DNA from: Clytia hemisphaerica
Lineage: Eukaryota > Cnidaria > Hydrozoa > Leptothecata > Clytiidae
DNA: 64,000 nucleotides
Assembly: GCA_902728285.1 (NCBI GenBank)
Contig: CACVBU010000050.1
Coordinates: 3,310,919-3,374,918 of the forward strand
Direction of reading: 5' to 3'
Below the pieces are notes generated by a model. That model ran no database searches. It saw only the letters and a list, made by a program, of their open reading frames with translations, and was not told the origin of the DNA. This document shows positions 1-28,871 of the stretch, piece by piece (positions within the stretch are counted from its first letter, which is position 1; each line of letters begins with the position of its first letter). The position numbers were made by a program, and so were the translations under genes.

Positions 1-444
1 GCTGAAAATGAAGCGGATTTGTTACTATAAGCGTCTGTTTTGCGGTAGTTGGCTATCAAACTTGACAGCCGTCCAGGAGATCCATGTTCGATTCCAACTC
101 TTAGCTAAGATTCACTTGGCAAGTGAAAATATCTTCGCCCAGACTAACGCAGTCTGTACATAGACCCGATATCTACGGCTAATTTCAAAGTTCATTGTAG
201 TATTTACTACGAAACGATAAACGTGAGATACACTCTAGTACAGAGTAGGGCTAACCAATGGCACGTGGGTAGCCAGAAACACAAGAAGTCTCCTGGTGAC
301 TGTGTCGCGTATCGATACACTGATAATATAATGCATGATTTAAAAAACTTGATTCAAATACTGCATTTAGCGTAAAACCAGACAGGATCAGGCTTTAAAG
401 ACGATAAACTGATGTTCTTTAAAGAAGGGACGTGTTTCACAAAC
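1..444. other. Downstream MVP intron or 3' flank, no exon found
   Basis: The last visible MVP exon ends in a good donor (GAGCAG followed by GTTTGT). The expected continuation of the cap helix and C-terminal tail was not found on the minus strand in this stretch. It is therefore probably intron sequence whose partner exon lies beyond the window. It contains one tRNA-like segment, listed separately. Confidence 0.5.
47..100 (+). other. tRNA-like segment (possible SINE or tRNA relic)
   Basis: A B-box-like stretch, GTTCGATTCC at 86-95, follows TTGGCTATCAAACTTGACAG, which resembles an A box and anticodon-stem region. A full cloverleaf with a paired acceptor stem was not found, so this reads as a tRNA-derived repeat or relic rather than a working tRNA gene. 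Confidence 0.25.
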
Positions 445-3400
445 CTGCTCGAGAATTTCCATTTTGGAGTTTTCTTCGATTTCCAACGCCTTTGCTTTTA
501 AATTAGCAGCTAAAATATAGATATAATTATGGCGATGAATGATGCTGTTAATACTAAATTGAATCAAACAAAAACTTTTTTAAACAAAATCCAGCCATTC
601 AGGCGGTATAAAATAGTATGCCAAAGCAAAACTTTTCTAACCTTCAATAGCCATGTGTCCTTCGATCAAAGTCTTTTCGGCTTGAGCCTAAAAGTGTGAA
701 CAGGTAAAGATTATGATGAACAGTGATAAAAAAGGCCCTTTGTGGCCCTATTTTGGCCTCAAATAAAGAATGCGGATGCTCAGATGGCGGGAGGGTCAAA
801 GAGCTGACTAAAAGAAGCCTCTTGTAACACGCTGTTCATCCCAAATTTGAAATGCATTTCTTTTTGATAATAGCTCGTCATAAAAAAAGAAACCTTTTAC
901 AAGTTTTATTATTAAATTTTGTGTAAACAACAAAACTCCTTACCTCGGCTTCCGCTTTGGCTTGACCAGAAGATTCCACAGCGGCTGTTTCTGCACGTAA
1001 TTCATAGAGGTTCATACGTGCTGATTCTGCCGCCTGTAAGAAATGGAAGAAACATAGGAGTTAAATACGACGCACTACCATTCAAAGTCTCAAAATGAGC
1101 AATAAAAAAAATAGAGCCGCTATTTCTAGAAGGTGATGTCTTAGAAATATCTCAATAAGAAAATAAATCTTTTAAGCGAACCTTTTCATTTTGTAGCTTA
1201 TTCTTCTCCAAATTTCCTTTGGCAGTTTGTTCGTGTCTGCGAGCTTCGTGCGATGCTGCGCGCTCAATCGATCTAAAGAACAACGGAAATAAAATGTATG
1301 TATGGTCTTTTGAGATCTAAGTTAAAAAATCACATCTAAAGGAAAAGCCGAAATAGAGTGAGCAGATTCGTTCACAAATAATTTCATTCGAGTTACTGTG
1401 TAGACGATGTTATCGTTACAGTGATAGTAAAGGCGGTAAAATATGGCAGTATGGCGTTATGGCGCTATACGGGAAAAAATCGGCGGGAGAGTTTCGAAGA
1501 AACAGAATGGCAACTCTACCGACCATAAACTCTTTTCGGCAAAAAAACCCGTTTGCGAATTTTCTTCGGCTTTGGGTTTTTTTCTTAGATAGTGATTCGT
1601 CTTAGACTATAACATAGTCTACTTACTGTGTTGAGATTTCGATGGCCATTTGCACGGATTTCAACAAACTGTCTCTCATTTGTGTATCCACTGGTTCGAT
1701 GCTTTGAACATCAATGTTTGTCACTGTCTGCAAAAAAGAAATGTGATTTGTTATCCCTTTTCTATTTAAAATACGATTGAAGTAAAGTCAACTTTTGTAG
1801 ACTAGAGTCTACTTTTGGCTGAAATTTGCTTTTTGATAATTTTTTATGACGCTGAGTCCAGTGAAGTAGACTAGGAGCATTTGACGAGGTTGCCATTTTG
1901 AAAGAAAAAAATGGTTAAAATCTAAATAACAAAAAAGATACTTGAAGTTGAAAAATATAATTAAGAATGAAAAAGAAACATCAATAACAGATTTCGAATC
2001 CCTTATATTCAAATAAAAACATTGCTTCATTCTTTTTTTACATGGCAAAAACAACGAAAATCTGGCGGACTGTATAAGCAAAAGCATATAACCATATACT
2101 ACCGGACCACTTGATCGCGCCATCCAGTCTATAAAAAAACTTTAAGTGGACCCCGGACTACAACTTTTGGGACAACCAGCAATCCCAAGCGCTTTGGAAA
2201 TACACAAAGCGGGTGCTCTCAACAAAAAAGACAGGCCAGAAAATTTCGGAACAATTTTCGGAGAGAGCATAACACTTAAGTAAGATGGGCCCTTTTCTAT
2301 TACGTAAAAGTGTTTATCTCTCTGTGTAGAAGAGCTTGTACCAAGATAGCCTGTACCAGACGGTGACAAAGATATGCCGTTCTTCGTGGACTTGGCAGAT
2401 TTCTAAGAAAGTGTAAAACCACCCGCGACACTCGAGATGGAATAATGACACGATAAATCGCAGCGTTGCGTCAACTTACCATGTTGTTTTCAGAGAAAAG
2501 GAGAGCATTTCGGACATTATCTTCTTCATCGACACCGAAGACTGCTTCTTTCACGATTCGTGTGGAATAACGATGAAACTCATCGAATGTTGTGCGTGCT
2601 ACTCGACCACGAATTCGACTCGCTGAAAAATGAAGAAAAAAATATATAATATACAGTTGATTCTCTAGAACTCGAATCTCTGTTACTTGAATGTCTCCTT
2701 AACTCGAACAAGTTTTCTTGTCCCTTCAATAAACAATGCCTTGTAAACCAGTGGTCTCCATTACTCGGAAATTCCATCACTCAAACAATTTCAAGCTCCC
2801 TGAGACACTGTACAATATTTATCCTCCGTCTTTTAGCGAGTGAGATTTCTAATGACCTTGCCACAAATAACCCTTCAATCAGTACAGGCTTCCCTAAAGA
2901 GAAAAATCCTTTATTTATTGTGATAAGGGTGGCAGACTTACAACTTTAACGCCGGTTGCCACCCACCAAAAGAAATTATTTTTACACTATATATCCGCTC
3001 TTTAAAATTACCAATAAAATCTGTACGCGCTAAATATGGAATCATTGCCACAAGAGATCACAAAGCCGAAAAGTCGAGGACAGTAAAAGTTCTGATTTAC
3101 CACTGTCCTCAGTCAGTCAGGATTTAGACAAATCAAAAGCTAGCCGTCTCCAGCACAGAAAAACGAATAAGAGAGATTATGTATCGGAGATATTCTACGG
3201 CTACGGTTGCGGGGCTACCCATACGGGTCGTCACCAAAGGTGACATGTCGTTGTCTACTTTGCTCTGTACGGGAAAAACACCAAAACACCGTACAAGCAA
3301 AGTCGACATAATGCCGTGCGTTAAATATCGAACTTGCTTTCACCCGCCATTACTTGCCTTACTCGCTATTTCCCTCACCACTCTAACCGTAGCCGTAGAG

Positions 3401-9400: not shown

Positions 9401-12400
9401 AATGAGAAACCTACATTCTCGGGGTTTACTACATTCTCGGGGTCAGGTGTTGTACCTTCATAATTCATACACACAGTAATGTTATTCCAATACTTTTCAA
9501 AAATCTGATAAGAAATTATCTGACTCAAAAAATCATTTTAAAAATATAGGTAAAAAACGATTTAGCATGATACAAGCTTGTCGGGCGCCCTAAAATTACT
9601 TATACGGTGTTTTCTCGCTTATTTCGTAGGATAAACTCATTAGCCAAGAGCTGATCACTGAAAATAGTGAAAAACGAATGAAAGAAGATGAAAGTAATTC
9701 GACATTGACAGCTAGTGGTAGCACATATACAAACAATTTAACTTTGAATGAAAGTGGAACCTCGAGAACGGGTAGCACTTATTCGAGACATGAATGCTCG
9801 AAGGAGAATGTTATCTCAGGAACGGGGAGCAGATATTCACGTCATGAACGATCGAAGGAGACAGTTATCTCAAGAACCGGTAGCAGTTATGCAAGCCGTG
9901 GACATTTACAAGAGAGTGTTACCTCGAGAACCGCCAGCACCTATTCACGCCATGAACACCCGGAAGGTGTAGCCTCAAGAACGGGGAGCCCCTTTTCAAG
10001 TCACGATAGATTGAAGGAGAACGTTATCTCAAGAACAAATAGTGCCAATCCAAATGTCTCAGTTGTTGAGAGGAATGGGGAAGACGCCCTTGTGTCAGGG
10101 TCCAATGAGAGAGTGAATGGAAGTCAGATACTCTTTCATAGGTATATTATCTCTTCTTTTTGATATCCGATAACAGGTGTCTTTTATTGAGTCATCATTA
10201 ACACATATTTCCAGAATCTATCTATCTATCTGTCTAGAAGATAACTTTATATATTTTCCGTCCTGTTTATTAGCAAAGACACTAACGGATATCTTGCTTT
10301 AAGGGTTTTATTTTTACATATGTTTTCCCGTTTCATATCAGACATGTATTTAATACCAGGACAGTGTTTGCCTACTGTTATATTGTGCAAAAAATAGGTA
10401 AAAAATGTTTTTCTTTTCCTCTTTCTTTCTGATTAATCTTGCTCCACGTCCGTGTCAATTCAATATCAAAAAGCTTGTAAGTTAAAATTGATGAGTAAGC
10501 GAACGATATCACTCTTATTCAAAAACAAAACCTTTAATTAGCCAAATTATATGAGTAAAAATGTTAAACACCAAGAGACGTTAGACTAGAGATACGATAG
10601 CGGTTGCTGAGAGGTAGTTGTTTATAGCATATTGCTTTTCTTGACTTAAATTCACTTTGTTACAGCCCAAAGAGCCACAAAAACAAACAATTCACCGAAG
10701 CGATTACAAGTTTGACCGATACTGTTCTGGCTGCTGTGTTCATCTCCATATGGTTATTTGGAATGATTTTCTTGGTGTGCACACTGCTGTGCTGCACAAA
10801 CCAAGCCATTGCTTCTTTCAACGGGTAAGAAGTTCTCTGAACTCAATTTTAACTGTCTACTGAAGGTTATAATGACGAGGTCTTTAAAAGAAGGAACCCT
10901 TTAAAATGTCCAAGGGCGTGAAAGGTTATAAATTGTTTTAAAATTTAACCACTCAGGCAAAAATCATGTCACTACTTCATCCAAATTGACCAGAGAAAAC
11001 TCTTGGAAAATCTTAAAAATTAATCAATTACGCTCGACTTGTTCATTTATTTCTAAGTACAATTTCTTGTATTCTTCATTTCAGAGTGATTATCGCCAAA
11101 GATGGCCTTCCTACTAAAATTTATCATTACATGTGAGTCAACATTACTTTCGCTTTACACAAAAACAGCTCTCGAATCAACTTTCTATGCGTCTGAATGT
11201 CTGGGTTTCAAAGATCAAGAGTCCTTTCCCTAAAAGAATTGGTTACACAAAAGAACATCCAAATCTTCCTTCCTAACAACTCGGGTAAATTAATGCGTGT
11301 CCAAATTTTCGTTAATCTTTCGGACCCATCATCACCCCTCCTAACATAATAAATTATACCTTTAAAGAAGCGCATTACGATGTAGAACATGAAAATCGGT
11401 GTTACTTAAATTTAGGTTTTGCCAATTTTGCGAAAGACCGCAAAAACCAAAAAATGCTGACGTCAGCAAAACTTCTTTTTTAAATAACTCCAGTTTGGCT
11501 AATGGTATGAATATGAAATTTGGACGAAAGTTGCACATCATTAAACGGATCATTTTGAAAAAAAAATTTTCGAAATTTTGCTGATGTCTGCACTTTATTA
11601 CAAATTTTCGTAAATTGCTGATTTCTGCTGACGTCAGCAAAATTTGAAAAAAAAATTATGCAAAAATGTTTTTATTAATGATATGCAACTTTCGTCCAAT
11701 TTTCATGTTTATACCATTAGCCAAACTGGAGTTATTTAAAAAACAAGTCTTGCTGACGTTAGCATTTTTTGGTTTTTGCGGTTTTTCGTAAAATTGGCAA
11801 AACCTAAATCTAAGTAACACCGATTTTCATGTTCTACATCGTAATGCGCTTCTTTAAAGGTATAATTTATTATGCTAGGAGGGGTGATGATGGGTCCGAA
11901 AGATTAACGAAAATTTGGACACGCATTAATTTACCCGAGAATTATAACCAATATTTATTTAAGATTCTAACATTCGCTTTTCACTGAACAGCTCCACTTA
12001 GCACTTCCAGAACTTGGACAGTAGTCAAATCAATTTTTTTTTGAAACGGAAAAAAGATTTTACACAGCAAAGTAGAATCTATTCTTGAGATTTTAGCGAA
12101 TTATAATATATTTTGAGACGGAAAAGTCTTTTTGTAAGCTTCCCTGAGACAGAATAACTTTTGACACTGTAAAGACCTTAAACAGAGAAATTCACAAAAA
12201 TCTTCCTTCTTGACAACAACTATCATCAATGGTTCATTTTAGGTATGGAAAACCCGAACCAACATGGTCGGAATACGTGTCATTGAATGTTCATTTGATG
12301 TTGGAACACATCAAGTAAGTAAACACCTTCTTTCGTGAGGTATCTAGGTGAATCTCTTAGTCTTAGATCGGAAATAAAACCACTTATTTCCCATCTGAAG

Positions 12401-15400
12401 CGTGTAACCAACGCAGGGTTGAAAGTAAAATGTATCCCTAGATTTTCTAAAACATGCCGTGTGAAAGAAAAAAAAATTAAAACGCTATATTCAATTTTTC
12501 GCTGTTTTTCATTCTAAATATGGCGCAAATCTTCAAGATTCACTTTTTCTTGCTTGACAAAGGTTAAAGATTGATCTAGCCATTTGAGCTTTAAACTCGA
12601 TGGTATTGATTGTACTGTTTGTTGTCTTAGCGTTTGAGCGATTACTTAAACAAATATTTTATCTATTTAACAGATCTGTATGTTTTAAAACACCACCACC
12701 GCCTCCCACGTTGTCCGCCCGTGTGGCCCGCTATTTCCAAGACCTGCTGGACCAGGCTTATGGAATTACCTCAGCATAGTCTTTAACAGACTACAAATCA
12801 CTCAAAAAAATAATAAAATGTAAAATATAAAAAAAGTTTATAATGTCATTAAAAAAGAAACTGTTTAGGCCTCAAAGCTTATTTTCGAAGGTTGAGCACA
12901 ACAGTTTAAGGTTCTCAATGTTTTAAGGTGAAACTTCTTTTTCGCGCGACAATTTAGCATCAAAAAAGGAAAATAGCCCTCACATTCCTTGAGCGCCGAA
13001 AAAAAACAAATTAGCTTCTTTTTTATTTGGAAATCGACTTTTCTACCATTTTGAGATATTTTAGTTTGAAGAAGTGTGAAAAATTGAACACAATCAAATC
13101 CTTTCTCACTCTCTACAACATCAATAAAGCCCTCATTTTTCTAACTGGAATGTTTCGAATTGCAGTTTAGTTCATTTACAAAGGAAAATAGAATCAGTTT
13201 TACCACCTTAACTAATAGAAGTTTCCCTTAAACATCTGAACGTTAAACTTTTGTGCTCAACACTCGAAAGTGAGCTTTGACAAGTCTAAACAAAAAATAG
13301 GAAAAGATAAACTAATATCATTTCAATTCGATTTCTCCTCCCAAACCCGGTTACTATCTAAAGTTAAATAGAATAATTTTTACATACCGATGTTTCGACA
13401 GGCGAATCCAATGTAATCTGGTACGGAAAACAATTTGGTTTCTGATGCAAAATTGCCATTTTCGTACTGAAAGAAAAGAGAAAGAGGTCAATTATTTGTA
13501 TGAAATTGCCATTTTCATACTGAAAGAAAAGAGAAAGAGGTCAGTTATTTGTATGAAATTGCCATTTTCATACTGAAAGAAAAGAGAAAGAGGTCAGTTA
13601 TTTGTATGAAATTGCCCATTTTCGTACTGAAAGAAAAGAGAAAGAAGGTCAGTTTATTTGTATGAAATTGCCATTTTCGTACTGAAAGAAAAGAGAAAGA
13701 GGTCAGTTATTTGTATGAAATTGCCATTTTCGTACTGAAAGAAAGAGAAAGAGGTCAATTATTTGTATGAATTGCCATTTTCATACTGAAAGAAAAGAGA
13801 AAGAGGTCAGTTATTTGTATGAAATTGCCATTTTCGTACTGAAAGAAAAGAGAAAGAGGTCAGTTATTTGTATGAAATTGCCATTTTCGTACTGAAAGAA
13901 AAGAGAAAGAGGTCAATTATTTGTATGAAATTGCCATTTTCGTACTGAAAGAAAGAGAAAGAGGTCAGTTATTGTATGAAATTGCCATTTTCGTACTGAA
14001 CAAAAGAGAAAGAGGTCAATTATTGTATGAAATTGCCATTTTCATACTGAAAGAAAAGAGAAAGAGGTCAGTTATTTGTATGAAATTGCCATTTTCGTAC
14101 TGAAAGAAAAGAGAAAGAGGTCAATTATTTGTATGAAATTGCCATTTTCATACTGAAAGAAAAGAGAAAGAGGTCAGTTATTTGTATGAAATTGCCATTT
14201 TCATACTGAAAGAAAGAGAAAGAGGTCAGTTATTTGTATGAAATTGCCATTTTCGTACTGAAAGAAAAGAGAAAGAGGTCAGTTATTTGTATGAAATTGC
14301 CATTTTCATACTGAAAGAAAAGAGAAAGAGGTCAGTTTTTGTATGAAATTGCCATTTTCGTACTGAAAGAAAAGAGAAAGAGGTCAGTTATTTGTATGAA
14401 ATTGCCATTTTCGTACTGAAAGAAGAGAAAAGAGGTCAGTTATTTGTATGACATTGCCATTTTCATACTGAAAGAAAAGAGAAAGAGGTCAGTTATTTGT
14501 ATGAAATTGCCATTTTCGTACTGAAAGAAAAGAGAAAGAGGTCAGTTATTTGTATGAAATTGCCATTTTCATACTGAAAGAAAAGAGAAAGAGGTCAGTT
14601 ATTTGTATGAAATTGCCATTTTCGTACTGAAAGAAAAGAGAAAGAGGTCAGTTATTTGTATGAAATTGCCATTTTCGTACTGAAAGAAAAGAGAAAGAGG
14701 TCAGTTATTTGTATAGAAATTGCCATTTCGTACTGAAAGAAAAGAGAAGAGGTCAATTATTTGTATGAAATTGCCATTTTCATACTGAAGAAAAGAGAAA
14801 GAGGTCAGTTTATTTGTATGAAATTGCCATTTTCGTACTGAAAGAAAGAGAAAGAGGTCAGTTTATTGTATGAAATTGCCATTTTCGTACTGAAAGAAAG
14901 AGAAAGAGGTCAGTATTTGTATGAAATTGCCATTTTCGTACTGAAAGAAAAGAGAAAGAGGTCAGTTATTTGTATGAAATTGCCATTTTCATACTGAAAG
15001 AAAAGAGAAAGAGGTCAGTTATTTGTATGAAATTGCCATTTTCATACTGGAAGAAAAGAGAAAGAGGTCAGTTATTCTATTTAGTCGGACACTTATATCA
15101 AGAATCAGAGCTTTGGTCTGGCCATTTTTTTGTCTGAGCTTCGGGCTGTTCTCGTATCAGCTTATATAAAGAACACGACTTTGGTTCTCTTCGGCGAAGT
15201 AAAATTTTGGAAATAAGTTAATCGGGTAGTATAAGTACATACATCAAATTTATTGTTGGCAGCATATTTGATCTTCAATCGTGCATGATCAAGTGTCTCC
15301 ACCTGTTGGGAATTGAAACAAAAGAATTTAAAGGTGAGTAACTATTAAACCCCAAAACAAGGAAGCTTGTTTACAACAATGTAAACAATGTAGATAAGAT

Positions 15401-18400
15401 AATTTGGGCAAGCGCTCCTCAGAGCTTTATCTAGCAACATCTGTTTTACCTCAATGATGTCAGTGATATAGTCAGGACCAAGCATGATTGCTAAAGATTT
15501 CAATGCGTTCTCTTTTTTTGGTTTGCCAGCTGTAAGATATAAAGACAAAGAAATTATCATTATCTGATTTGACCTTTTGAAAAAGAGAAACCTTTTGTGA
15601 GTACGATAAACTTATACATGAAAGCAATGCGGTCGGGATTTTTTTTGTGGGCATATAAAAGTATTTAGGAAAGACAAGGGACAGAAGATAAAACCTACCA
15701 CTCAAACTCAAAACGTTGAATTCTTCTGAGGGCTCGAGCACAACCTGAAATTAGACAGGAACATAACAGCGTAATAAGTTAAAATGAGAAGTAAAAATTC
15801 TCATATTTATAATGGGAAGTTCATTGTAATGAATTAATCGTCAAGTTAACGAGTCAACGAAAGTTACGATAGATCTTTAAAAAATAAAGACGACTTTAAT
15901 GATGATAAAGTATCCACAAATTGAAACACTCCTTACCAAGTTTGGGCCAAAGACAACTCGACTGTCTTGTTTTCGATGGTCATATACTTGAACAGCTGAA
16001 TTGGGTGGAACACGATAGGTGACAGTTCGTGTCTTGTCACGCTGAAAAAAACGAATCGGAGAATTAAGGAACTCATTGTCGTTTTTCTTTCTTGGCGATA
16101 GACATATTTAAGGGGTATGAATCTTTATTAACTTACATCTTAAAACATTTAGAAGAAAAAACCGCAAATTAATGAGTAATAGGTAGAAATACAAAATGTT
16201 CCTTTCTGGATGAACGATAACGTGAACAAACCTTTCCAGAAGCATAAGCATTGTCGACTGAAGATTCAAAGTAAGCCATTTTTCGAATGTCTCCATCACC
16301 CCAGCATCCACCGTTCCTGAAAATGAAAGCAAGGAATAATTATTAATAAGTTTAAGTGCAATAAAAAAGCAAGCAGAAATTTGTGTTTCAAAAGTTATGG
16401 CCCTTTTAAGTACTACTGGTATCTTGACCCCTCTACTACAGTTTAGTCATAGTTGGCAGAGAACGTGTTAAAAATGAAATTGCTTACATTAACATCTTTT
16501 CCACGATAGGTGATAACTCTTTCTTCCATAAGACTTCGAATTGGTTCAGTAAGCATGCTTGAGGTCCCATTACCGTACGAACCTGGAGATAAAGAAAATG
16601 ATATTCTGGTGACTTGTGTCGTGCTGTGGCAAAGAAGAAGATATACTGATCTGATCTGATGACTTATCGTTGCACGGCTAGTTTTACAAGCTCAAGAAAT
16701 TCGGTTTATCTGCAAGTTTTTGAGAAGTTCCCAAGGGTTCTTACCTCTCCAGTCTTTTCATTTTGAACGTAAATTCCTTCATTCTTTCCAAGTGCAATAG
16801 GTTTTCTGTTTTAAACAAAATGAGCAAAGAATATCAATTTAACGTATCTACTACCACTTGCTTAGACAATGTTTTTAAACAAAAGAAAGAACGACTTTCA
16901 CTCCCTCCCTCAACGCGCGGGCATAAATTTGATGAAAAGTTTATTCTGCTTTATCAGCATAAGGGGAGCACCTGCTTTGTATAACATAAAAACTATATCT
17001 TTAAAATTTCCCAGTTGAAAAAAAGTATTTGGAAGCAAGCAAAACAGTTGGCTTAAAATAAATATTGAAAGGATTTCTACCTGAGATTCTTTACTTCCAC
17101 TTCGACAGGCGGTGTGTATACAACCGGCCCTTTGATCATCCAAACATCTCCAGGCTTTCGTTGGATGGGTTCTAAAATACAAAATACGAAGTTCTCCTTT
17201 ACCATGAAAATTGAAGAGTTCCTTTTTCACTAGAGCCACTATTTTTACTTTTTACAGCCATTTTAAAAAGCGTAGTGAAAAATGACAAAAACAGCCTTTC
17301 CTGTGGAAACTAACCAATTGGAAAATACACATACATTAACAAAACTTATCATCTCGAAAGAAGGGGATTTTGGAACAATTGGTATCATTGGTGATTTTCA
17401 TCACATAATGCGTCTTTTGAAAATCTTATTCTTCGTCAAACAAAGAAAAAAGACATCTGCTTTACAGACCTTCACCAAAGTTGTCAACAAATTCATCGAC
17501 AGCAGAGAGGATGAGGGCTTGATCATCTTGTAATAAGAAAATGTTTTGGATCCCTCCACTCAATGTCTCTCCTGTAAAAAGGAAAAAAGTAAAGAAGTTA
17601 TAGTGAATAGCTGCAAATAATAACTTATACGATAAGAGACATAGGTTTGAAGGAAATTCATATTCAGCAAACATTATGGTGCGAATCTGTAGACAAATAT
17701 TGCACAGTAAAATTTCCAGTTCTTCTAGAGGGTTGAACACATACCAGGTTTTAAGAAGAAAGAGAGGGGTCCTTTTCGGAGTTCTTTCTTGCCACGTTGT
17801 TGTTTTCCTTCGCTGTCATAGGGATCAAGAACAATACAGAATTGATCTTTCGATAAAACTGTTATGGCAACTCTTCTCACCAATTTCTAAAGATATGAGT
17901 GCATTTGTGTAAGAATTATAATTCAGTGCTAAAATGTCCTATGGCTTGTTATCTGTGGTTGCATCTGTATGTTTCCGAACATATAAATTTCACATTCAAA
18001 GACTCTCCTGATTGAAGAAGATCAATATTTAAAAGCTATAAAGAAGATGAAGGGAAATACCTCTCCACATTCTGGTATATAAGTACAACTATCACTGGAC
18101 GTGACCAACCATTCTTCACCGGCAAGTCTGAAATCAAAAGTGAGGTGGTGGTTTAGTGAAAAGTAAAAACACATCCAAAGGCTTTTAACGAAGTCAACCG
18201 GGTGGTATCCCCCAGTAATCCCTCCTTTTTTGAAGCGTTTTTGCACTATTTGAAAAGTGAATTTTAACTCCAAAACCACTAAACAAAATTTAAAAAGTTA
18301 GCCTTCAAAATTTAAGATAGAATATCCTCATCTAATATAAGTATTTTCAGGGTCGTTCAACAATCTATTCTTTCTCAAGAAGGTAACCAACGTCCGAAGT

Positions 18401-21400
18401 TTTTTTTGGACCGGCCGGTATTTGTTTGAATTACAGAGAGATTCGAGTTATGGAAAGTATTTAATACTGTTTTATCCTTATAAAGGGGATTAAGAAAAAG
18501 ATTGAACTATAGAAAGGTTCCAATGCTCGAATTAGAGAGAGTCAACAGTAGTTTGCTTTCACATTAAAACTTAAAATTGAGCTCACCTTTTCTTGCCCAG
18601 ACCATCAGTCAAGTTTCTTTCCGCAGTCATATATAAACCATTATTCTGTGTCAAAACATAGCTTTGAACAACAGACATAATTTCCTCGTATACTCCAGGA
18701 AGGTAAGCTCCAAGTTTTCGAACCATCCATTCTTCTCCTGTAATACAAACCAAAAAAGATCTTTAAAAGTCGAAAAGATCAAAGTTGGACCTTGTTTACC
18801 AATTGACCATGCCGCTTATGTTTGATTTTGTTCAATCTATATCCTCATATTGCTACTAACATCACGTTGGTTATGCCTGGTTATGCTATTGCAAATTGTT
18901 CATATCCCTTCAAATCCAAAATGAAATGAGTTCATTAAATTCTAGCAAATCATTTGAACATGCTTACCTGTTACTCTGTGGTTTCCATTTTTATCAACCA
19001 AATCAATTTTAGCTTTCAAGTGTAAAGCTGAATTCTTAAGGATAATGGTAGGGCTAACTTCTCCAATTCGTTTGCATTCGGGTTTTGGGTAAAATGTGCA
19101 AGGGCCTTCGATTTGCCACCTGTCACCGGCAACACGAATCGTTCCATTGTCATCAAAGTCTGCAAGGGCTTCTAACTTCAACGCTTTTCCAGCTGGGATC
19201 ACTGGAAGTTTGTTGATGCCTTTCTCAACTAAAAAAAAGAAAATTAAATATCAAATTATTTAGCCTGTACCAAACTCTTCTTCACAGGAAAAAAAACCAC
19301 GTGGTACACCGACAAGATTATTTATTAAAAGAGCAAAAAATCGACCAGTAGGGATAGGACTGGCTATAGCAAACTAGGAGTTTTGACTATCTTCATATTA
19401 TTGTTAGAGGGACCGATCGGACAATATATCTAACTATCAATATAAGTTTGTATGGTAATTGTTTCTGTTATCAAACTTTCCTGGGGTAAAGAGGGATGAA
19501 AAATATGTATTTTAAGCTAATGTTTTGATTTTTTTTAAATTTTTTGTATAAAACTAATTACAAAATTATCAAGTTTAGCTTAAGATAATACATTGGAGTC
19601 TCCATAACTCTCCATTGCAAATTTGTTCAAGTTTATGAGACATAGTTAAATGAAGGGACCATGAAACTTGTTTGAGTTAAGGAGACGTATTCGAGTTATG
19701 AATTTATCAAAATTACAAAAGTTATCTTCATTAATACAGTGAAAACCCAGCCACACTACCTTGGCAATTAATTCGAAAATTAGGGAAGGAACATTTTTCT
19801 CGACATGTTTCGGACTCGAGGTAAATTTGTAAAATTAATGAATAAAATTAATATGCATTACACACTTTTTTCTTTTATAAGAACAATTCTGTAAGAACAA
19901 CGATGCTCAAAATCCCAAAAAAATTTAAATTAAGAACAAATCTGAGCCTGGAATTACTCATTTCAAGCAATTTAGGGGTCAAAGTATTCTAAATTGCTTT
20001 AATTTCACCCTATAGATAAGAACAGGATAAAAACAATTTGAGGCTCAAAGTGGTAAAAAATAAGAACAGCCAAGCCTCGTCAAAAATTCACTAGTTCTAA
20101 TAAAAAAAAGGTGTACTAAAAGCAGCTAAAAGAGCCATTGATCATTCATTGCCTAATAACGTATGAAACTTTTTGAGGAGTAAATATATTTCTAAATATT
20201 GGACGGCAAAGTTTGGAATCTGAACGTTTCAATACGAATCAACACGAGCCTCATCCAAAATTTACTAGTTTGCATCTAAGCTAAGCAGTCTTATTTGCAA
20301 TTTGAAGATTTTAAACCTCCCATCTTGTTATTGCGAAGTTTTTATTTTTTTAACTACCTTATCGGCCCTTTTTACGCCGGCCCTTATTAGCGTTATTTTT
20401 GGGCTCATGGCGTAATAAGGGCCGTTGTTAAAAAGGCCGGCGTAGAAAGAACCGGCGTTAAATTAAGGTCGGCGTAAAAAGGGCCGATAAGGTAATCTTA
20501 TTAAATTGACCTTTCACGACCTCCACTTTACGTTATTATTAGACTCGAGGCTTGAAAAATGAATTGAAACGAAAAACTAAAAAGCTCAAAAATAAGATAA
20601 GAATGACAGTCAAAACTAAACTAAACGGATCCGTTGGTTTTCCAACGGTTCCGGTGACTGGTCAGAAGACAACATGAGAGCGACTGTATTCACTTCATTG
20701 TAATACATAAGGGCAATATTCATAAACTATATAATGCCAATATATAAAAATGATTGCATAAAAATATACCATAAATCTATTTTTTTGGGCAAATCTTCAT
20801 TTATGATATTCGAGCTTAGCTTTACTGTTTAAGTAATTGATAAAAAATTGAATTTTTCTCTCGTCACTGCCAGAGTTCATCCCGACTGTTTTTTCGGCTT
20901 CGGCGAATGGCCAATCCACCTCGACTTGTAAAGAATTCACGGTTCTGATGAAGCCGACGCAATCTTTATTGTTTAGTTCAATGACCAAACCTTGGGAGCC
21001 TATCATGACGTCAGGGATTTTCAACTTGAGCGAGAAAAACTTCATGAAAAACTTGATTTGCTGTTCGTAATATAAGGGAATTGTAGAATCCAATGGTACA
21101 CTTTGAATCTCAACTACAGTAAATGGTAATGGACAGAGAGGTTTGGTTTTTGATTGATGAAAGAACTTTAAAAACCATTTACATTCCGGTACGTCCATAT
21201 CGATAATCAGTGACTCGAGTCCGACCATTTTATCCGGGATTTTGAGGACTGATGTCACTTTTCCAGAGGAATCAGTTTTAACAATATTAGTACTGGTAAA
21301 AGATGCCTCCATGTCACGTATGTCTTGAGAAGTCAAATGACTACAAATCTCAAACTTTTGGAACGGGTCTTCATCTAACTTCAATGATGTGGCGGTGACA

Positions 21401-24400
21401 AGTTTAAGGAACCCCATGCATTCTTTATGGTGTTTGTTAATGAGCAACGTGTCACCACCCTTCATACAATCCGGTACTTTTAAAGTCGTGATATTGTTCT
21501 TTTCAAGCAAGTAAACAACTTCCTCAATATAATCAAGCTGTATATCAGACTTTACCTCAGCTGTTTTATCAAACGAACTATCAACAATAACAAAATTTCG
21601 ATCAACACCAATCAGAGCGATTAGGTTTTTGAACTCTGGGGTGTCCATATCAATAATCAAAGTATTTTGTCCAATCAAACAATTTGGTCTTTTGAGTTTG
21701 AGGTTCATATCATTTATGAAGCTTGCTACTTTAATTGGTTCACCTTCCATAAGCAGTCGCTGGATACTTGCTGTAGAATATGGACATTCAACTTGATAAT
21801 TTGAATAATAAATGAAGTTAATTAACTCTCTGCAAGCATCTATAGCTGTGTTGATGATTATAGAGTCAGTATCTACCATAGATCTAGGAAGTTCAAGTTT
21901 GAGATTCGAAGATTCAATAATGTATTTGATCTGTTCTATATTCTTTTGATTTATTTGACTGTGGATTTCGATCGATGTCATTGGATAAACTGGTTTCAAT
22001 TGCAGATCATAAGCAACGTTTATATGATGTCTACACTCTGGAAAATTCGTATTGATAATAATCGAGTCAGTACTAACCATACAGCTAGGAATGTCGAGTT
22101 TTAAATTCGAGGCTTTGATAATATATTGTATTTTTCTCATATCTGTACGATTGATTTGACTGTGAATTTCGATCGAAGTTGCAGGATAAACTGGTTGTAA
22201 TTGCAGATCATAAGCAATGTTTATATGATATCTACATTCGGGGGAATTCGTGTTGATAATTAAAACATCAGAGCCGATCATACAATCGGGGACTTTTAAT
22301 TTCAAATTCAAACGTTTGATAATAGACGGTAATTTATCTTTGATGAATTGTTCATCCTCAGGCTTTAAAAATGCTTCGCCTGCAGAAAATGGATATTTGA
22401 CGTAAGAATATGGACAATCCACCGACGCCCTAGTTCTATGGACAATTTTCATAAATTGGATACATTCAGTGTTCCTAGTGTTAACGACTAAAGCATTAGT
22501 GCTTTTCATCACGCGTGGAAGTCTTAATACGAGATTCAGATGTTGAACAAGAAAACTCACGAGGTCGAAGTCAAAATTAACCTCAAAGGTGATGTCAGCT
22601 TTGGCAAAGAGATGATCTTTTGATGTTAACTTCGAATCTCTCAAAAACTTAACCCACTGTTTACATTCTGGTATTGCAGTATTAATGATGAGACTATCCA
22701 CGCCCTGCATACATCTAGGTATTTTAAGCTTGAGATTCAAATGTTCGACAAGGAAAACGACATTCCTCAAATCAATTCCACGAAGATCACATTTGATCTC
22801 CACTGTAGAAAATGGGCATTCTACGCGCATGCGTCCTTCATAGAGCGTCGTCATGAATTCTTGGCATTCTGGGATTTCAGAATTAACGATCAGGCTGTCC
22901 GGTCCAAACATACAATCTGGTATTTCAACAACACTATTCTTTACCAGGTACCTTTCAAATCTCCAGGATCTGAAGGGCTGTACAAATCTTCCATACATGG
23001 ATGACCTACTCCGATGTAAATCAGATAGCCGTCTGAAGAATTTAATGAAAACGTCGTTCTCGTTCAAAAGTCGACCGATACCGAACATAACAGGTGCACA
23101 ACTTGAAAGCTCGCGGTTTCTTAAATATGGAGAGATTCCTTTAGTAACGTACAAATGAAGTCCTGTCAGGAATTCCTGAAGAACTAAGTGCTTGTACTGG
23201 TAAATCGGTTCTCGCATTTCACCACGATTGTATTTGACGATAAGACCCGTTTGCTCAAGATGTACGGGACATTTCAATTGACGAACCTCCTCTTCAGAAA
23301 ACAATACCTGGTTTTTCATATAAGTTTTTACCGATAAAGTCATCAATGAATAAATACAATCGATCACATTAGCATCGTCAAGCATTTCAAGCAAGTTGTC
23401 ATAGCCTTTATTACATAAACCTTGTAAATGTTTCCTCAAAAAGACAAGGCATGCATACATGTTAAGTTCAGTGTAAGTATTTAACGGTTTCGTTATGAGA
23501 TCCTCGCTGTACACGTTACAGATGACCCAAGCAAACACGGGAACGGTAGACATGACTTTCAAATTATGCGATGACCTAATGATCTCCTTCACTCGAATGG
23601 CTTTTTCAGTGTTCTCGTTAAAGAATTTATCGATGTATTGTTCGACTTCCTCCTCTTTGAAACCGCAAACCTCAACTGTTTTTATTTTGATCACCTTTCT
23701 GCTGGAAATTTTTAACTCCAGAATCTCTTTCTTTACAAAGTCACACGCTTTTGGTCTCCCAGATGCAATACATTTGTGGCCTTTCAAAATAGAACCTTGT
23801 GTGTTGATAAGATCGAAGACGATTTGAAAAGGAGTCAGACTTTTGACTTTCATCTTGGATTTATTCTTGGAGCGATCGTAAACACCTTGTAATTCGTCGA
23901 GCCCGTCAATGATTACCAGAATTTTATCCGCAACTGGTTCGAGATCTCTCAATGTGATCTTTTCGAAAATGTCAGGGTATTTGATTTTAAATAGATCATC
24001 AATTGATTCCAGCTTGTCGTAGATTTGATTGATTTCACGGCATGAAAAGAAGAAGACAAACTCCATCGGGAAATCTAATCCAAGTTGACGTTTGGCCCAT
24101 TTCTGGGTATACATTTCAAGCATGGTTGTTTTTCCCATGCCACCCACAGCACGAACAAAAACTGCTTCATCCTCCTTCTGGAACAAGTCATGGAGTTCTA
24201 TACTTTCTTTCTGTAAAAGCCTTTGTTCCATCAGCGCCTTACGGTCCGAATTATTGATCTCTTTTTCAACCTCGGTTGCTTTGAGGACCGCTAGTTCAGT
24301 GTATAAGTTTTCATCGTATTGGTAATTGACTTGATTCTTGTCTCCCATCAAAGGCTCGTGAACGAGTGACGTAATCACTTCCTTAGCGTATTGACATCGT

Positions 24401-27400
24401 AATTTTAACGATGCTGATTGGATATCTAAAAAAAAGAATTTTGACATGAATGCTACTGAATCTCTGTCGTCTCAGTATTTGAAGTTTTTTAGAGAATACA
24501 GTTGGGTCTCTCTAATTCGATCTTTAAGGGGGAAAGAATTTTCTTCGAATTGGAGAAAGATTCGAGCTACAGAAAATATTTTGGATGACTCAACAGCTGA
24601 GGAGACCAATGTTTTAGCTCGAATTACAGACATTCGAATGACAGTGGTTCGAATTAGACAGAGTTGACTGTAAGAAGATTTACATCGATTAATCTAAAAG
24701 TGTGTGATTCAGATGGTTGCTTATAATGTTTAAACAAATTCAAAAGTACACAAATATAAATATTTTTATTACATGAAAAGTGTCTTCAAAAAGGAATTTT
24801 TGAATAGAAATTTCCTTAAAGTACGCTCATGCTAACCTTCAGTAACAAGTGTATTCTGCTTGATATTATTGATAATATCCACTCCATTTAACCTTTCCAA
24901 CTCCAATTCTAACCGTGACCATTCGACTGTTTTGAGTTGATCCGTTAGATTTTCATCTTCATTCGACGATAAACCAAGTCGTAAAAGTAATTGATTTTTC
25001 TCTTCCCCAATCTTGTTGGATATAATTTCCAAAACTTCTGTGGTGCAATATATTCCAGGTTCTTAAAAAACAAAATTAAATTCTCTTAAAAAAGACTCCA
25101 TGACATAGTACGGTGGAGTCTCCATGACTCGAACACGCACGGGGAACACAAATTTGTTCGAGTTAAGGAAATTTCGAGTTATATAAGGAGTAAGGTATAT
25201 GAGGAATTGTTAACTGAAAGGACGAAAAAACTTGTTCGAGTTAATGAGACATTCGAGTTATAGAGGTTCGAGTTAAAGAGACACTGCTGTATTACTCGTT
25301 CGAGAAAGCCGGAATAGAAAGCCGGAGAAGAAAGTGTAAGAAGAGAGAGTAAGTGGGTGTTGATTTAGGGTGACTAAAAATCTATACAGTGCTCCGGTCA
25401 ACACGCACGCGGAACACAAATTCATTCGAGGTAAAAGAAGACATTTTAGTCTTAGATTTTCGAGTTAAAGAGACTCCACTGAATTATGGTGTTAATCTGG
25501 ACAAAAAACTATGAAAATCTTATTAATTAAAATATATGGTGAAAAATACCTTTAAGTGTGGGTAAATTGTCTTTAATAAATTCATGTTCTTCTTTCAGAC
25601 GCTCGACAAGGTGATAAAGATTTAAGATGCATTCTTTATTTTCTTGGTGAAAATCTTTGTGGTTCGCCAAGATGGTTGCATAATCATCCAATCTATCGCT
25701 GTGATCTTCAAGCACAATGTCGTGATCTACAAGGGTAGTATCGTGATCTGCAAGGGTAGTGTTGTGATCGCCAAGGGTAGTGCCATGTTCGTTCAAAGTA
25801 GTGTCATGTAAATTTAGGTTTTTATCTAGATTCGAAATTTCTTGGTTCTGAGTCACCATGTCTTTCTTTAATTGAATATTATCCGCTCCAACGTGGGAAA
25901 GTTCGTTCAATATCTTTTTCGAGAAAAAGGATAAAGATTGAACTACGAGATTATTTGTGACATCAAGTGGTCTGTTTTTCAATGCGTTGAAATTATAAGT
26001 TGTGAGTCCTAAACCTATGACGATATTTTCCCCTTCACTCCATCTCAAGTTGAATTCAACCGAATCAATACTTTTGCCGTCAGCATGTAAAAGACGATTT
26101 CTCCAATCGCGTGCAAGAAGGACAAACGCTGCAGGACTGACGTCGGTTGGATCTAAAGCCTTTTTCCAACCCTTTTTAGGAGGTGGTAATGTAGTAAAAT
26201 TGATAATCAAAACAATGATTAGAGTTATGTCAAACGTTTGACTGTCTGTTTGATTTGAGTTTGGGGGAAGTAAAGTATCTACTTGGCTTTTCTTTAAAAC
26301 GCCTTTCTTTGCTAACTGGTTTATTGTACTTTGTTGCTTTCGAAGTTCAATGTTAAGGGCTGTTGAGTTTCTCGGTAAGCCAACATAATTGGGATCGTTG
26401 TAATCATTATGTAAGAGAGCAAGTAGTGCGCCTTTTAGAGGCTCGTGAAGCAGAGTAGCTAATCTAAGCCAATTCTCTATCTCTTGAATGGCCTGAGCTA
26501 CAGTAACGTAGGATGACATCTTTCTTAATTCTTTGACAAAATCATTCTCCTCGTTTTATCTCATTATTTCAACCAAAAAATCTCTAAAGTGAAAGTTCGA
26601 AAAATAACTTCAAGCATGGCAAAAACAAAAATGACAAATTAACACATCTTCACCGAATACAAAAAATATATTTTCCTGATATTTCCCGATTTTTTTTCCA
26701 TTCTGAATAAAATGAAGGAAAAAACAATCCTTCCCTAATAAACGAAAGTTTGCAAAAAATATCAAGCTTGTAAACACAAAAAGTCACATGCCAAAATTTG
26801 ACACACACAAAATTCTCTTTCTCTTTATAAAGCACACATCTCAGATTCGATTAAAAACGCAATTAGTCAGCAATACAAACAAAAAATCTGATCTGAACCA
26901 TAGAGGTATAAAGAAAACAGGAGTTGAATGTGTTGGTAATTGGTCGTTAAAGTCTTTTGATTTCTTTTATAAAATGTATCAAAAGAAATTCTAAGCTCGC
27001 CCGATGAAATAAGACTTTTTAGTAGAACTCAAGTTTGCTCTGAACATTCTAATAATCAGTATTGAAGATTCTAGCCTTTTAATATACGAAAATTAGATAA
27101 AACTTCGTCCACGAAACAAATTTATGTTCCATTTCGCTATCCGTTCAATTTTGTTTTGAAAAGATATTTTCTCAAGCCAGAAAATGAAAAGTTCTTTATA
27201 AGCACACACGATTTCAGACTCGATTTGTAGACATAAAGTCGCTGGAGAATTTTGGAGGAAAGTATCAAGCAATAGAGTTCACCTGAAAGAAACCATTGAT
27301 CGAAAAATCTTATCATTTGATGAAGGATTGCCAAGTTTACAGGCCTTTTTTTAGTCCAAATATTTTCTTACACTGATGTCAGAAACAATGAATCTCGTCT

Positions 27401-28871
27401 CATCTAATTTCTAAAGCTTAAATGAGCCAATAAGATTTAACCTATGGATAAAAGAGCTCATTAAAAATGCACGATATATGAGATTATGAGCATGTATACA
27501 TCGTAACTTTTTTAATCGTAGGGCGAGCTTGGTTACAATAGCATACTTCTCCTGTCTTTCTTTATACCTCCATGTCTGAACCCACTGTGCTGTGCTGTCA
27601 CCGTTTGAATACCAAACAACAATTGAACAAAGAAATTTGAATTTAGCTTTGATAGACTAAAGAGACTTGAATTAGGCAGGAGGGGGTCTCAGAAATTTAT
27701 ATATAGGGGGTTTGGCCTTTAGGGGGGGTTGATTATAGAGAGGGGGTTTGAACCACCCAGGAAACTGTGTGAGTGATGATAATAGACATGTTTTAAGGTA
27801 CGTCATTTGTCTGATATTTTTGGAATGTAGAAAACTTTCAGACGATTCTTTTGGAGAGTTAAATTTTAATTTATCCCAAATTACCCTCAAAGTCATACGA
27901 TTACTAACACTAATAAATGCGATTTTCATGTTTCTAAAAAAGTGCCCTTCCATAAGGCACCACAAGGATTAGGATAAAAATTTAATCGATCATTACAAGT
28001 GATAAAATCACTCACCTCCTCCAGCAAGGATTTCACCTGGGTACAAAGAAAACGGTTCTTGATGGAGCCGAATTTCTTCAAGTCCAACTTTCAAACTAGC
28101 TTGCTCTCCATATTTTACAGGTAATCTAGAAAATTGTAAAAGCAGTTTTAAGTCATCCTATTTCTGACCAATAAGTAATTCTTGAAGGGGTTAATCGGCA
28201 AGTATTTTCCAGGTACCAATTTTTTAATTTCATCAAACAGAAAATTTTCTCTATAAAAAATAACAATACGGCGATTCTTGAGGATAAGGTATTCTCATTT
28301 TTGACTGGGTACCCCCAGTAGGGACCTGGAAGCCATGCACCATTTAGTTGGTTCAATCAGGCATAATGGTTGTGGCTGACAACCTTTTGGAATGACCTAA
28401 TAAGTGATGGACAAGGAACAAGGAGACTTACTTTGCAGGGTTAGAAATTTTACAATAGTGTCCAGGAGGGATGATGACAAATCTTTCTGGTCCATGTGTA
28501 ATTTTTTGATTTTCTTGCAGAATGACACTCTTTGGCCCTTTTTCCACATAGGTGATGTTAGAATTCTAAATGGAAAAACATTTCTAGGGCTTAATCAAAA
28601 TTAAAGGTTTTAATTTTCTTGGTTCTCTAATTCACAGGGTTTCCCTTTTTTGAAAATAGAAAATAAGTATTGACAAAAATTGAGGTTCCACAAAGAGCAA
28701 TTTTGAAAATTGATGATTTGATTGATAAGTAGTAGTAGCACGGGGAGGCTGGAAAGATAACAAGGAGATTCAAAAAAGTGTTAAGAAGAAGTATTTAGTT
28801 GTAAACATTCTTACCAAATCCAGAACATGAGCATACTCCAATGGTCTCAACCTCAAAATTGTGCTTGACAT
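445..28871 (-). CDS. MVP: Major vault protein (MVP), 23 exons, C-terminus outside window
   Basis: MVP is the main shell protein of the cytoplasmic vault ribonucleoprotein particle. Exons, in order: 28815-28871, 28432-28565, 28016-28125, 18968-19228, 18587-18737, 18061-18127, 17745-17886, 17470-17571, 17081-17171, 16745-16805, 16488-16582, 16232-16316, 15937-16041, 15699-15744, 15450-15529, 15243-15302, 13388-13466, 2480-2622, 1627-1727, 1182-1272, 944-1033, 642-687, 445-509. All junctions are GT-AG and all phases join in frame, giving 754 codons against about 890 in vertebrate MVP. Recognisable stretches are [15 protein letters not shown] (N-terminal vault repeats), [46 protein letters not shown] (shoulder), [15 protein letters not shown], and the cap helix ending [13 protein letters not shown]. 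The start is the only Met, in exon 1 ([19 protein letters not shown]). Introns 3 and 17 (8.8 and 10.8 kb) contain other genes. The last roughly 110-140 residues were not found in 1-444. Confidence 0.95.
2640..2790. mobile_element. pogo/Tigger-like MITE relic, copy 1
   Basis: Contains the repeated phrases CTTAACTCGAACAAG and CCCTTCAATAAACAATGCC, also found near 19600, 25100-25300 and 37650-37800. The 'tctccttaactcgaa' phrase resembles pogo-type terminal sequences by general knowledge. The ends are too worn to define a target duplication. Confidence 0.4.
3470..3477 (+). promoter_or_regulatory. TGACGTCA (CRE/ATF-type) site upstream of nested gene A
   Basis: A perfect 8-bp palindrome TGACGTCA lies in the context CTATTTGACGTCAAAAA, about 180 bp upstream of the ATG at 3655. 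The same context occurs upstream of the paralogue at 8110. By known family specificity this is a bZIP (CREB/ATF) site. That it works here is inference. Confidence 0.45.
3655..5712 (+). CDS. Nested gene A: small membrane protein, paralogue of gene B
   Basis: Five exons: 3655-3666, 3807-4111, 4359-4655, 5420-5485, 5634-5712. All have GT-AG boundaries and matching phases, giving 252 residues. I do not recognise the family. Exon 1 encodes only MDTT, followed by a polar acidic/threonine-rich region. Exon 3 carries two tandem copies of a 34-residue block containing the hydrophobic run [17 protein letters not shown], then a third hydrophobic stretch. The tail has PEPSWLES and a PPP motif and ends at ISQ. 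The tail motifs (PEP[ST]W, PPP, short C-terminal helix), the phase 2 introns, the promoter motif and a 3' MITE are shared with the gene at 8110-12779, so the two are duplicates. The gene lies entirely within MVP intron 17, on the opposite strand. Exon 1 is the least certain part. Confidence 0.7.
4399..4602 (+). repeat. Tandem 102-bp coding duplication in gene A exon 3
   Basis: Bases 4399-4500 and 4501-4602 are near-identical in-frame copies. Each encodes 34 residues: a basic stretch (FLTY..TKIM.RPNNWTP) followed by a hydrophobic segment. The few differences suggest a fairly recent exon-internal duplication that doubled a transmembrane segment. Confidence 0.85.
5013..5300 (+). repeat. Direct duplication in intron 3 of gene A
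   Basis: About 90 bp starting GAGTTCTGATGTCAGGTGG at 5013-5110 recurs at 5202-5300, 189 bp away, with a few substitutions. Both copies lie in the intron before the exon at 5420, and each is preceded by a possible acceptor. No coding role is seen. Confidence 0.7.
5799..6163. mobile_element. MITE with TIR TTTAGGCCTCAAAGCTCA, 3' of gene A
   Basis: The left end TTTAGGCCTCAAAGCTCA at 5799-5816 is matched in inverted, slightly diverged form at 6143-6163 (TGAGCTTTGACAAGTCTAAA). A related copy lies 3' of gene B at 12864-13290, so the element was probably part of the duplicated segment. Confidence 0.55.
6921..7103. mobile_element. 183-bp MITE with perfect 15-bp TIRs
   Basis: ACAATTCCTGCATTA at 6921-6935 and its exact reverse complement at 7089-7103 bound the element. 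Inside, AAAAGAACGACAAATT occurs twice. It interrupts a repeat whose uninterrupted counterpart is at 6220-6480, which shows it is an insertion. Confidence 0.65.
7872..7898 (+). promoter_or_regulatory. Two TGACGTCA sites upstream of nested gene B
   Basis: TGACGTCA occurs at 7872-7879 and 7891-7898, about 215-240 bp before the ATG at 8110. The first is in the same CTATTTGACGTCA context as the site upstream of gene A. Both promoters also share an ACACACC...GAAATTT-like segment close to the start. Confidence 0.5.
8110..12779 (+). CDS. Nested gene B: serine-rich repeat, single-pass membrane protein
   Basis: Six exons: 8110-8142, 9630-10141, 10666-10824, 11085-11132, 12243-12314, 12674-12779. All have GT-AG boundaries and matching phases, giving 309 residues. 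The family is not recognised. Exon 1 encodes [11 protein letters not shown]. Exon 2 contains five 18-residue repeats of the pattern S-R-T-G-S-x-Y-S-R-H-E-x-x-K-E-x-V-I (about residues 56-145). Exon 3 encodes a clear transmembrane segment (about residues 201-223, [19 protein letters not shown]) followed by Cys-Cys. The tail has PEPTWSEY, a PPPPP run and an amphipathic end. No signal peptide is seen, so topology is uncertain. It is a paralogue of gene A at 3655-5712, and both sit in MVP intron 17 on the opposite strand. Exon 1 rests on phase and the splice donor only. Confidence 0.72.
8183..9452. mobile_element. 1.27-kb TA-flanked DNA transposon relic in gene B intron 1
   Basis: The left end, TA then CAGCACCTGACCCCGAGAAT, is matched by the inverted right end ATTCTCGGGGTCAGGTGTTG then TA. 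The ends are therefore CA...TG with a TA target duplication, as in Tc1/mariner-type elements. The internal phrase 'cccc(g)agaatgtagg' recurs near 8380, 8546, 9050 and 9415. No transposase frame remains. Confidence 0.6.
8787..8935. mobile_element. Relic of the ACACCCCTG..C family
   Basis: This resembles the element at 56812-57103, sharing ACACCCCTG, ATAGAAATTCTATTGTTCCAA and GGGGTCCC.GGGTCT. It lies inside the larger 8183-9452 element. Confidence 0.4.
9762..10031 (+). repeat. Five 54-bp coding repeats in gene B
   Basis: The 18-residue units start at [11 protein letters not shown] and run through five diverged copies. Because the unit is 54 bp, a second reading frame also stays open for about 75 codons; I treat that as a by-product. 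Confidence 0.8.
11280..11939. mobile_element. 660-bp foldback element in gene B intron 4
   Basis: The arms begin with CTCGGGTAAATTAATGCG and end with its exact reverse complement. They are about 300 bp each, with high inverted identity. GCTGACGTCAGC palindromes lie within the arms. This is a non-coding foldback or MITE-type element. Confidence 0.75.
12812..12817 (+). promoter_or_regulatory. Polyadenylation signal AATAAA of gene B
   Basis: AATAAA lies 33 bp after the TAG stop at 12777-12779. This supports the last exon of gene B and its separation from the MVP exon that follows on the other strand. Confidence 0.55.
12864..13290. mobile_element. MITE with TTTAGGCCTCAAAGCTTA ends, 3' of gene B
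   Basis: The left end TTTAGGCCTCAAAGCTTA and the inverted right end TGAGCTTTGACAAGTCTAAA match those of the element 3' of gene A (5799-6163). The two copies support duplication of the gene together with its 3' flank. Confidence 0.55.
13467..15075 (-). repeat. About 30 tandem 53-bp copies of the MVP exon-17 splice acceptor
   Basis: Read on the minus strand, each unit contains the polypyrimidine tract CTCTTTTCTTTCAG, then TACGAAAATGGCAATTT, which is the first 17 nt of MVP exon 17, then CATACAAATAACTGAC. I counted 30 units plus the real exon at 13388-13466. Units alternate between TCAGTACG and TCAGTATG. The array fills most of MVP intron 16. A 53-bp period means that using the next acceptor upstream would shift the frame and meet a TAA. 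Confidence 0.95.
18833..18890. repeat. Dispersed repeat, shared inverted with 29156-29213
   Basis: About 55 bp containing CATATTGCTACTAACATCAC occurs here and in inverted orientation at 29156-29213, both near MVP exons. It is probably a piece of an unrecognised MITE. Confidence 0.6.
19588..19720. mobile_element. pogo/Tigger-like MITE relic, copy 2
   Basis: GGAGTCTCCATAACTCTCC and TTGTTTGAGTTAAGGAGACG match other copies in the window. Confidence 0.4.
20355..20494. mobile_element. 140-bp MITE with TACCTTATCGGCCCTTTTTA ends
   Basis: The two ends are exact inverted repeats of about 25 bp, rich in GGCCG and GGCGTAA phrases. A decayed relative with GGCGTAAAAAGGGCCAA lies at about 54485-54608. Confidence 0.7.
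20797..26519 (-). CDS. NLR-type receptor: HEPN - coiled coil - Death-like - NACHT - novel repeats
   Basis: Three exons: 25550-26519, 24837-25061, 20797-24425. Phases agree, giving 1607 residues. Residues 1 to about 180 resemble the HEPN domain of the DZIP3 family, including ITLIIVL, a conserved W and RNRLLH (R140 to H145, the RNxxxH RNase-type motif). Residues 225-320 form a coiled coil with heptads of the TL.DHDT type. Exon 2 (324-398) looks like a Death-fold domain ([20 protein letters not shown]). The NACHT ATPase has Walker A GGMGKTT at 492-498 and Walker [12 protein letters not shown] at about 566-576. From 899 to the end come ten repeats of 67-79 residues. NACHT proteins of this kind are cytosolic sensors that oligomerise. 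The ligand is unknown. The Met at 24447 is not the start: it lies upstream of the acceptor TTTTTTTTAG. The gene sits in MVP intron 3, on the same strand. Confidence 0.88.
20800..22923 (-). repeat. Ten 67-79 residue protein repeats of the NLR
   Basis: Each unit centres on a pattern like [20 protein letters not shown] followed by T..PEC and then CPYSTVEI. The I/L-P positions fall at protein residues 899, 966, 1033, 1109, 1176, 1243, 1310, 1381, 1460 and 1534. The period is most often exactly 67. This is not the LxxLxLxxN pattern of LRRs. Confidence 0.85.
24463..24668. mobile_element. pogo/Tigger-like MITE in NLR intron 2
   Basis: GAATCTCTGTCG near the left and GACAGAGTTGACTGTA at the right form imperfect inverted ends. 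The internal phrase 'ttcgaatt' occurs on both arms. The element fills much of the 411-bp intron. Confidence 0.45.
25106..25300. mobile_element. pogo/Tigger-like MITE in NLR intron 1
   Basis: TACGGTGGAGTCTCCATGAC on the left and AGTTAAAGAGACACTGCTGT on the right are imperfect inverted ends flanked by TA. TTGTTCGAGTTAA occurs inside. A second shorter piece follows at about 25395-25485. Confidence 0.5.
26520..28015. other. Right part of MVP intron 3, 5' of the NLR
   Basis: No exon was seen on either strand. This stretch must contain the NLR promoter if that gene is transcribed on its own. No TATA box at a convincing distance was identified. A G-rich stretch lies at 27677-27750. Confidence 0.4.

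Follow-up and report, generated by a model that had tools for sequence, protein, structure and literature searches.

In the gene for the major vault protein (MVP) of Clytia hemisphaerica, the boundary between intron 16 and exon 17 lies within a 53-bp minisatellite. As read from the DNA, the array itself, the splice signals carried by every copy and the status of acceptor 31 as the sole site yielding MVP are established. The reading that we favour, with a probability of roughly 0.6, is that of a young "mirage" of the type described in amphioxus, in which acceptor 31 is dominant via exon 17 and the other acceptors are mostly skipped. Coordinates (Table 1) refer to the window, that is the whole stretch of 64,000 nucleotides analysed.

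Table 1. Position of the MVP exons and of the acceptor array in the window
Feature	Position	Strand	Remarks
MVP exons 1-15	15450..28871	-	ATG at 28871; intron 3 of 8787 nt
MVP exon 16 (60 nt)	15243..15302	-	donor GATGTATGT
Span from exon 16 donor to acceptor 1 (196 nt)	15047..15242	-	
53-bp minisatellite, 30.9 copies, across the MVP intron 16/exon 17 boundary	13450..15076	-	TRF and unit decomposition
Stretch between the start of exonic sequence at acceptor 1 (15046) and the end of intron 16 (13467)	13467..15046	-	1580 nt added to the mRNA if acceptor 1 is used
MVP exon 17 (79 nt)	13388..13466	-	behind acceptor 31, the sole acceptor with the normal frame
MVP exon 18	2480..2622	-	continues exon 17 in frame; intron 17 of 10765 nt
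Further MVP exon matches (1724-, 1265-, 1030-, 516-)	436..1724	-	tblastn with a human MVP query; DNA read

The MVP gene is found on the minus strand, with a frame open across exons 1-18. It extends beyond the window start and its 3' end lies outside the window. Splicing of exons 1-17 from the ATG at 28871 gives 1726 nt of open frame with no frameshift. Exons 4-17, spliced by hand, form a single open frame whose product matches the MVP of the PDB (query residues 1-473 of 474, MVP residues 106-574, E 8e-136), while exons 1-3 and the matches downstream of exon 17 were located by tblastn with a human MVP query. The first-pass annotation was therefore correct in naming the gene MVP and in its numbering of exons 16 and 17. 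Apart from the array-bearing intron 16 (1776 nt), the introns preceding exon 18 comprise 14 of 147-459 nt together with the long introns 3 (8787 nt) and 17 (10765 nt). The exons have a GC content of 0.415, compared with 0.327 for 12 short introns and 0.313 for the array; over the window it ranges from 32.5 to 40.7% (2-kb steps).

The two long introns carry open reading frames of their own. Intron 3 includes, on the same strand (-) as MVP, a 1224-aa NACHT ORF (20797-24471) and a second ORF, of 342 aa, that has a DZIP3-like HEPN domain (25527-26555). An ORF opposite MVP within intron 17 (9630-10163, +) contains a 54-bp coding repeat and has no Pfam match at 0.01.

The array spans 13450-15076 according to TRF (period 53, 30.9 copies, 95% matches). 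Read on the minus strand, its unit consists of CATACAAATAACTGACCTCTTTCTCTTTTCTTTCAG followed by TACGAAAATGGCAATTT, corresponding to 36 nt from the end of the intron and 17 nt from the start of the exon. The first-pass annotation had described about 30 copies of a 53-bp unit with this composition, and both TRF and the decomposition into units bear this out. The array holds 31 complete acceptors, whose exonic sides begin at positions running from 15046 down to 13466. A script gave 30 inter-acceptor intervals: 19 of 53, 5 of 52, 4 of 51, one of 54 and one of 55 nt. Pairwise alignment of 30 units shows 23 substitutions. Two sites account for 18 of them (C3T in 12 units, C29T in 6) and the remaining five are scattered; C3T is synonymous in the exon 17 copy. 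Since the substitutions are few and concentrated at two sites, the array is either young or well homogenised. With only 5 singleton substitutions in 1580 nt, just 0.19 units would be expected to lack the AG, and the presence of the AG in all 31 acceptors is therefore not evidence for selection on the splice signals. Neighbouring units share either variable site no more than in shuffles, and hence no higher-order blocks were detected.

Within the window, the search for dispersed copies of the unit gave a best blastn-short match outside the array at E 0.3 and a longest match of 16 nt. Rfam and tRNA scans across the window returned no match, nor did the exact 44-nt unit pattern in viral_contigs, as expected for an animal gene. 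Other repeated elements occur in the window. A near-perfect inverted repeat (40333-43196 and 43511-46375; aligned arms of 2866 bp, 99.7%) has 19-bp tandem repeats close to its two outer ends. Each of its arms contains a C2H2 zinc-finger ORF, of which the one at 44425-45006 was tested, and the element is probably a foldback-type transposon. An 892-aa open frame at 50614-53292 (-) carries a reverse transcriptase domain (RVT_1) and corresponds to a LINE-like element.

All 31 array acceptors include a putative branch site, recognised as a sequence match (CTGAC or TTGAC, yUnAy) 20-22 nt before the AG, with no intervening AG, 16-19 pyrimidines out of 19 and the junction CAG/TA. With a matrix built from the 13 other MVP acceptors only, they score 11.2-15.4, versus -1.7 to 14.8 for the genuine acceptors (leave-one-out, which depresses the genuine scores somewhat). 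Of the 13 genuine sites, 3 score at least 11.2; among the 3512 other AGs of the minus strand the share is about 0.54%. The array decoys (acceptors 1 to 30) thus appear to match or exceed genuine acceptors in strength. Donor signals behave differently: the GT sites of the array score -5.3 to 3.1 versus 3.9-10.1 for the 14 genuine donors (leave-one-out). This excludes a minisatellite of the donor-side type and argues against excision of units as 53-nt introns, the array donors being too weak and none being re-formed. Recursive splicing and a dual-specific array were likewise rejected: AGGT is absent, all 31 junctions are of the CAG/TA type and no donor is re-formed.

Only acceptor 31 keeps the MVP frame, and all 30 decoys lead to a stop. 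From acceptors 1-29 the stop is reached inside the array, 24-81 nt past the junction. Acceptor 30 adds 53 nt, and the resulting frameshift ends at a TAG in exon 18; it meets no TAA in the array, contrary to what the first-pass annotation had stated for the next acceptor upstream. The broader claim made there, about 31 nearly equivalent 3' splice sites of which the last alone is productive, agrees with the motifs, the scores and the frames. NMD is expected to degrade mRNAs with stops ahead of later exon junctions. All decoy stops precede such junctions, and decay of these mRNAs would therefore be expected.

Arrays of this kind are known from other animals. In amphioxus, mirages are minisatellite-like repeats across an exon-intron boundary, reported in the BflGb6 and BflGb9 globins, Adh3, TnC and PGBD5 (PMC3087553, PMC3902484). 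The BflGb6 unit combines the 3' end of intron B12.2 with the 5' part of exon 2 and includes acceptor signals (PMC3087553, PMC3902484). The MVP unit likewise joins an intron end to the start of the next exon (36 + 17 nt), and its copies carry splice signals as those of the mirages do (31 of 31 by motif and score). However, the reported BflGb6 units number 6 or 3, measure 150-160 bp and are 81-100% identical, whereas the MVP array has 31 nearly identical units of about 53 bp, all with strong signals. Mirages of the amphioxus type are further defined by mRNAs that use the authentic outer boundary alone and by array lengths that vary among alleles or somatic cells; the MVP array is described from one sequence, in which acceptor 31 alone keeps the frame. 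Amphioxus acceptor mirages with repeated AG/GT signals were found by RT-PCR to splice normally (PMC3087553), and the Adh and TnC mirages are likewise reported not to disturb splicing (PMC3902484). The human IFI6 (6-16) gene also has splice signals within a coding-gene minisatellite, but on the donor side, and its downstream units are used, giving isoforms (PMC4526556). In human ABCA7, the intron 18 VNTR has a 25 bp unit whose first two bases form the exon 18 donor. Exon 19 skipping is reported to have risen with VNTR length, while use of repeat-unit splice sites did not (PMC5954066); this case differs from MVP in being on the donor side and in its length effect, which is exon 19 skipping. UBC, a repeat gene, likewise has an array of tandem splice sites, but these are reported as dual-specific AGGT sites serving as donor and acceptor (PMC10809524) rather than CAG/TA acceptors. 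According to these accounts, mirages, IFI6 and ABCA7 show that splice-site minisatellites occur at either end of introns. The MVP array is therefore a new, large acceptor-side example of an already known phenomenon; among the open-licence papers searched, no splice-site minisatellite was found described for MVP.

We propose that the array began when the 3' end of MVP intron 16 was duplicated in tandem along with the first 17 nt of exon 17, and that it expanded to 31 copies through slippage or unequal exchange. Under exon definition, the spliceosome would couple acceptor 31 to the donor at the far end of the 79-nt exon 17, as suggested by the lack of a good donor downstream of any array copy. 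The remaining 30 acceptors would mostly be skipped and the entire array removed with the intron, its length being nearly neutral. The introns on either side of exon 17 measure 1776 and 10765 nt, which favours this scheme: where both flanking introns exceed about 250 nt, a preference is reported for the acceptor nearest across the exon, and exon-intron GC contrast is linked to exon definition (PMC9225289). The GC contrast at MVP, the weak GT sites of the array and the normal splicing in amphioxus also support dominance of acceptor 31, a reading that assumes a need for MVP in the host animal. Against it stand the apparent strength of the decoys, at least that of genuine acceptors, and the position of acceptor 1, which is transcribed first and leaves an intron below 250 nt. 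Such short introns are reported to follow intron definition, with the upstream acceptor favoured (PMC9225289). The two rules conflict here because acceptor 1 closes a 196-nt intron whereas acceptor 31 opens a 79-nt exon between long introns. If decoys were skipped independently, half of the mRNA would be productive only with a calculated use of at most 2.3% for each of the 30.

A sizeable share of the MVP pre-mRNA might instead leak into array acceptors, chiefly number 1, leading to an early stop and degradation. The allele would then be hypomorphic and a longer array would mean less MVP, which is the dial on vault levels suggested in the first-pass annotation. This is less likely, though it deserves serious attention. 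In its favour, the 31 acceptors all have a branch match with no intervening AG and 16-19 pyrimidines of 19, they score at or above genuine sites, and all 30 decoys reach a stop. The 196-nt intron left by acceptor 1 is typical of the 14 other short introns before exon 17, and in human ABCA7 splicing and expression are reported to follow the length of the VNTR (PMC5954066). However, that length altered exon skipping rather than donor use in the repeat units (PMC5954066), and the amphioxus acceptor mirages are reported to splice normally (PMC3087553, PMC3902484). For these two reasons array length as a dial is possible but is not our default. Together with the weak GT sites of the array, the normal splicing of the published acceptor mirages is also why we place dominance of acceptor 31 ahead of sizeable leakage.

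The array might also, though improbably, silence itself, its length and its mix of C and T units setting the leakage into decoys. In a decoy, the sequence across the splice junction, GTATGAAA, has its reverse complement in the repeat joint TTTCATAC; acceptor 31 has no downstream TTTCATAC partner. The predicted decoy hairpin (8 bp) pairs the G of the decoy's own AG, with an energy of -6.7 kcal/mol for T at +3 (10 of 12 T units) and about -2.3 for C units. An 8-bp arm was reached in 66 of 5000 shuffles, and random joints reached the pairing of T units in 45 and that of C units in 117 of 2000 cases; a three-unit fold gave z -1.79. In the -3..+27 context, this G is paired at 0.78-1.0 in 30/30 decoys versus 0.09 in acceptor 31. 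However, acceptor 31 reaches 0.85 in the -3..+60 context, with 20 of 30 decoys at or below this value, and 0.57 in the -60..+100 context, where no decoy of the 30 is lower. Moreover, pairing at 0.95 or more is also predicted for 5 of the 13 genuine acceptors, so that pairing alone does not prevent acceptor use. Masking by hairpins is thus possible but gives mixed, context-dependent predictions. As the contrast fades or reverses in some longer contexts and genuine acceptors are also paired, our explanation does not rest on it.

Nearly constant use of acceptor 1, giving an allele close to null, would follow the proximity rule reported for introns of less than 250 nt (PMC9225289). We consider this very unlikely. 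Against it, the rest of the frame is undamaged over exons 1-18, although a young null would look alike.

The assembly itself may contribute to the array, in copy number or unit lengths. There are 20 single-base indels, in 13 of the 30 units, against only the five scattered substitutions outside the two variable sites, and no frameshift occurs across the 1726 nt of coding exons. Fifteen of the 20 indels lie within runs of two or more, and some may be sequencing errors. However, such runs cover 28 of the 53 unit positions, making the enrichment only moderate, and selection purges coding exons. The recurrent transitions (12 and 6 of 30 units) are scattered along the array, unlike copies of one unit. 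A largely artefactual array is thus very unlikely, while its copy number and unit lengths are provisional. We give hardly any credit to the idea that array RNA acts as a sponge for U2AF, SF1 or PTB: one intron does hold 31 pyrimidine tracts, and Gomafu RNA, with tandem branch motifs, is reported to bind SF1 and slow splicing (PMC3116199), but nothing at the locus indicates binding or abundance.

The locus offers a natural test of how one of several equal 3' splice sites is selected: the site nearest over the intron is acceptor 1, at 196 nt, and the one nearest over the exon is acceptor 31. Should the spliceosome ignore the array, exon definition would be overriding 30 decoys; otherwise the length of the array would exert heritable control over MVP output. 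The presence of a mirage-type array in another gene suggests a wider search for such arrays.
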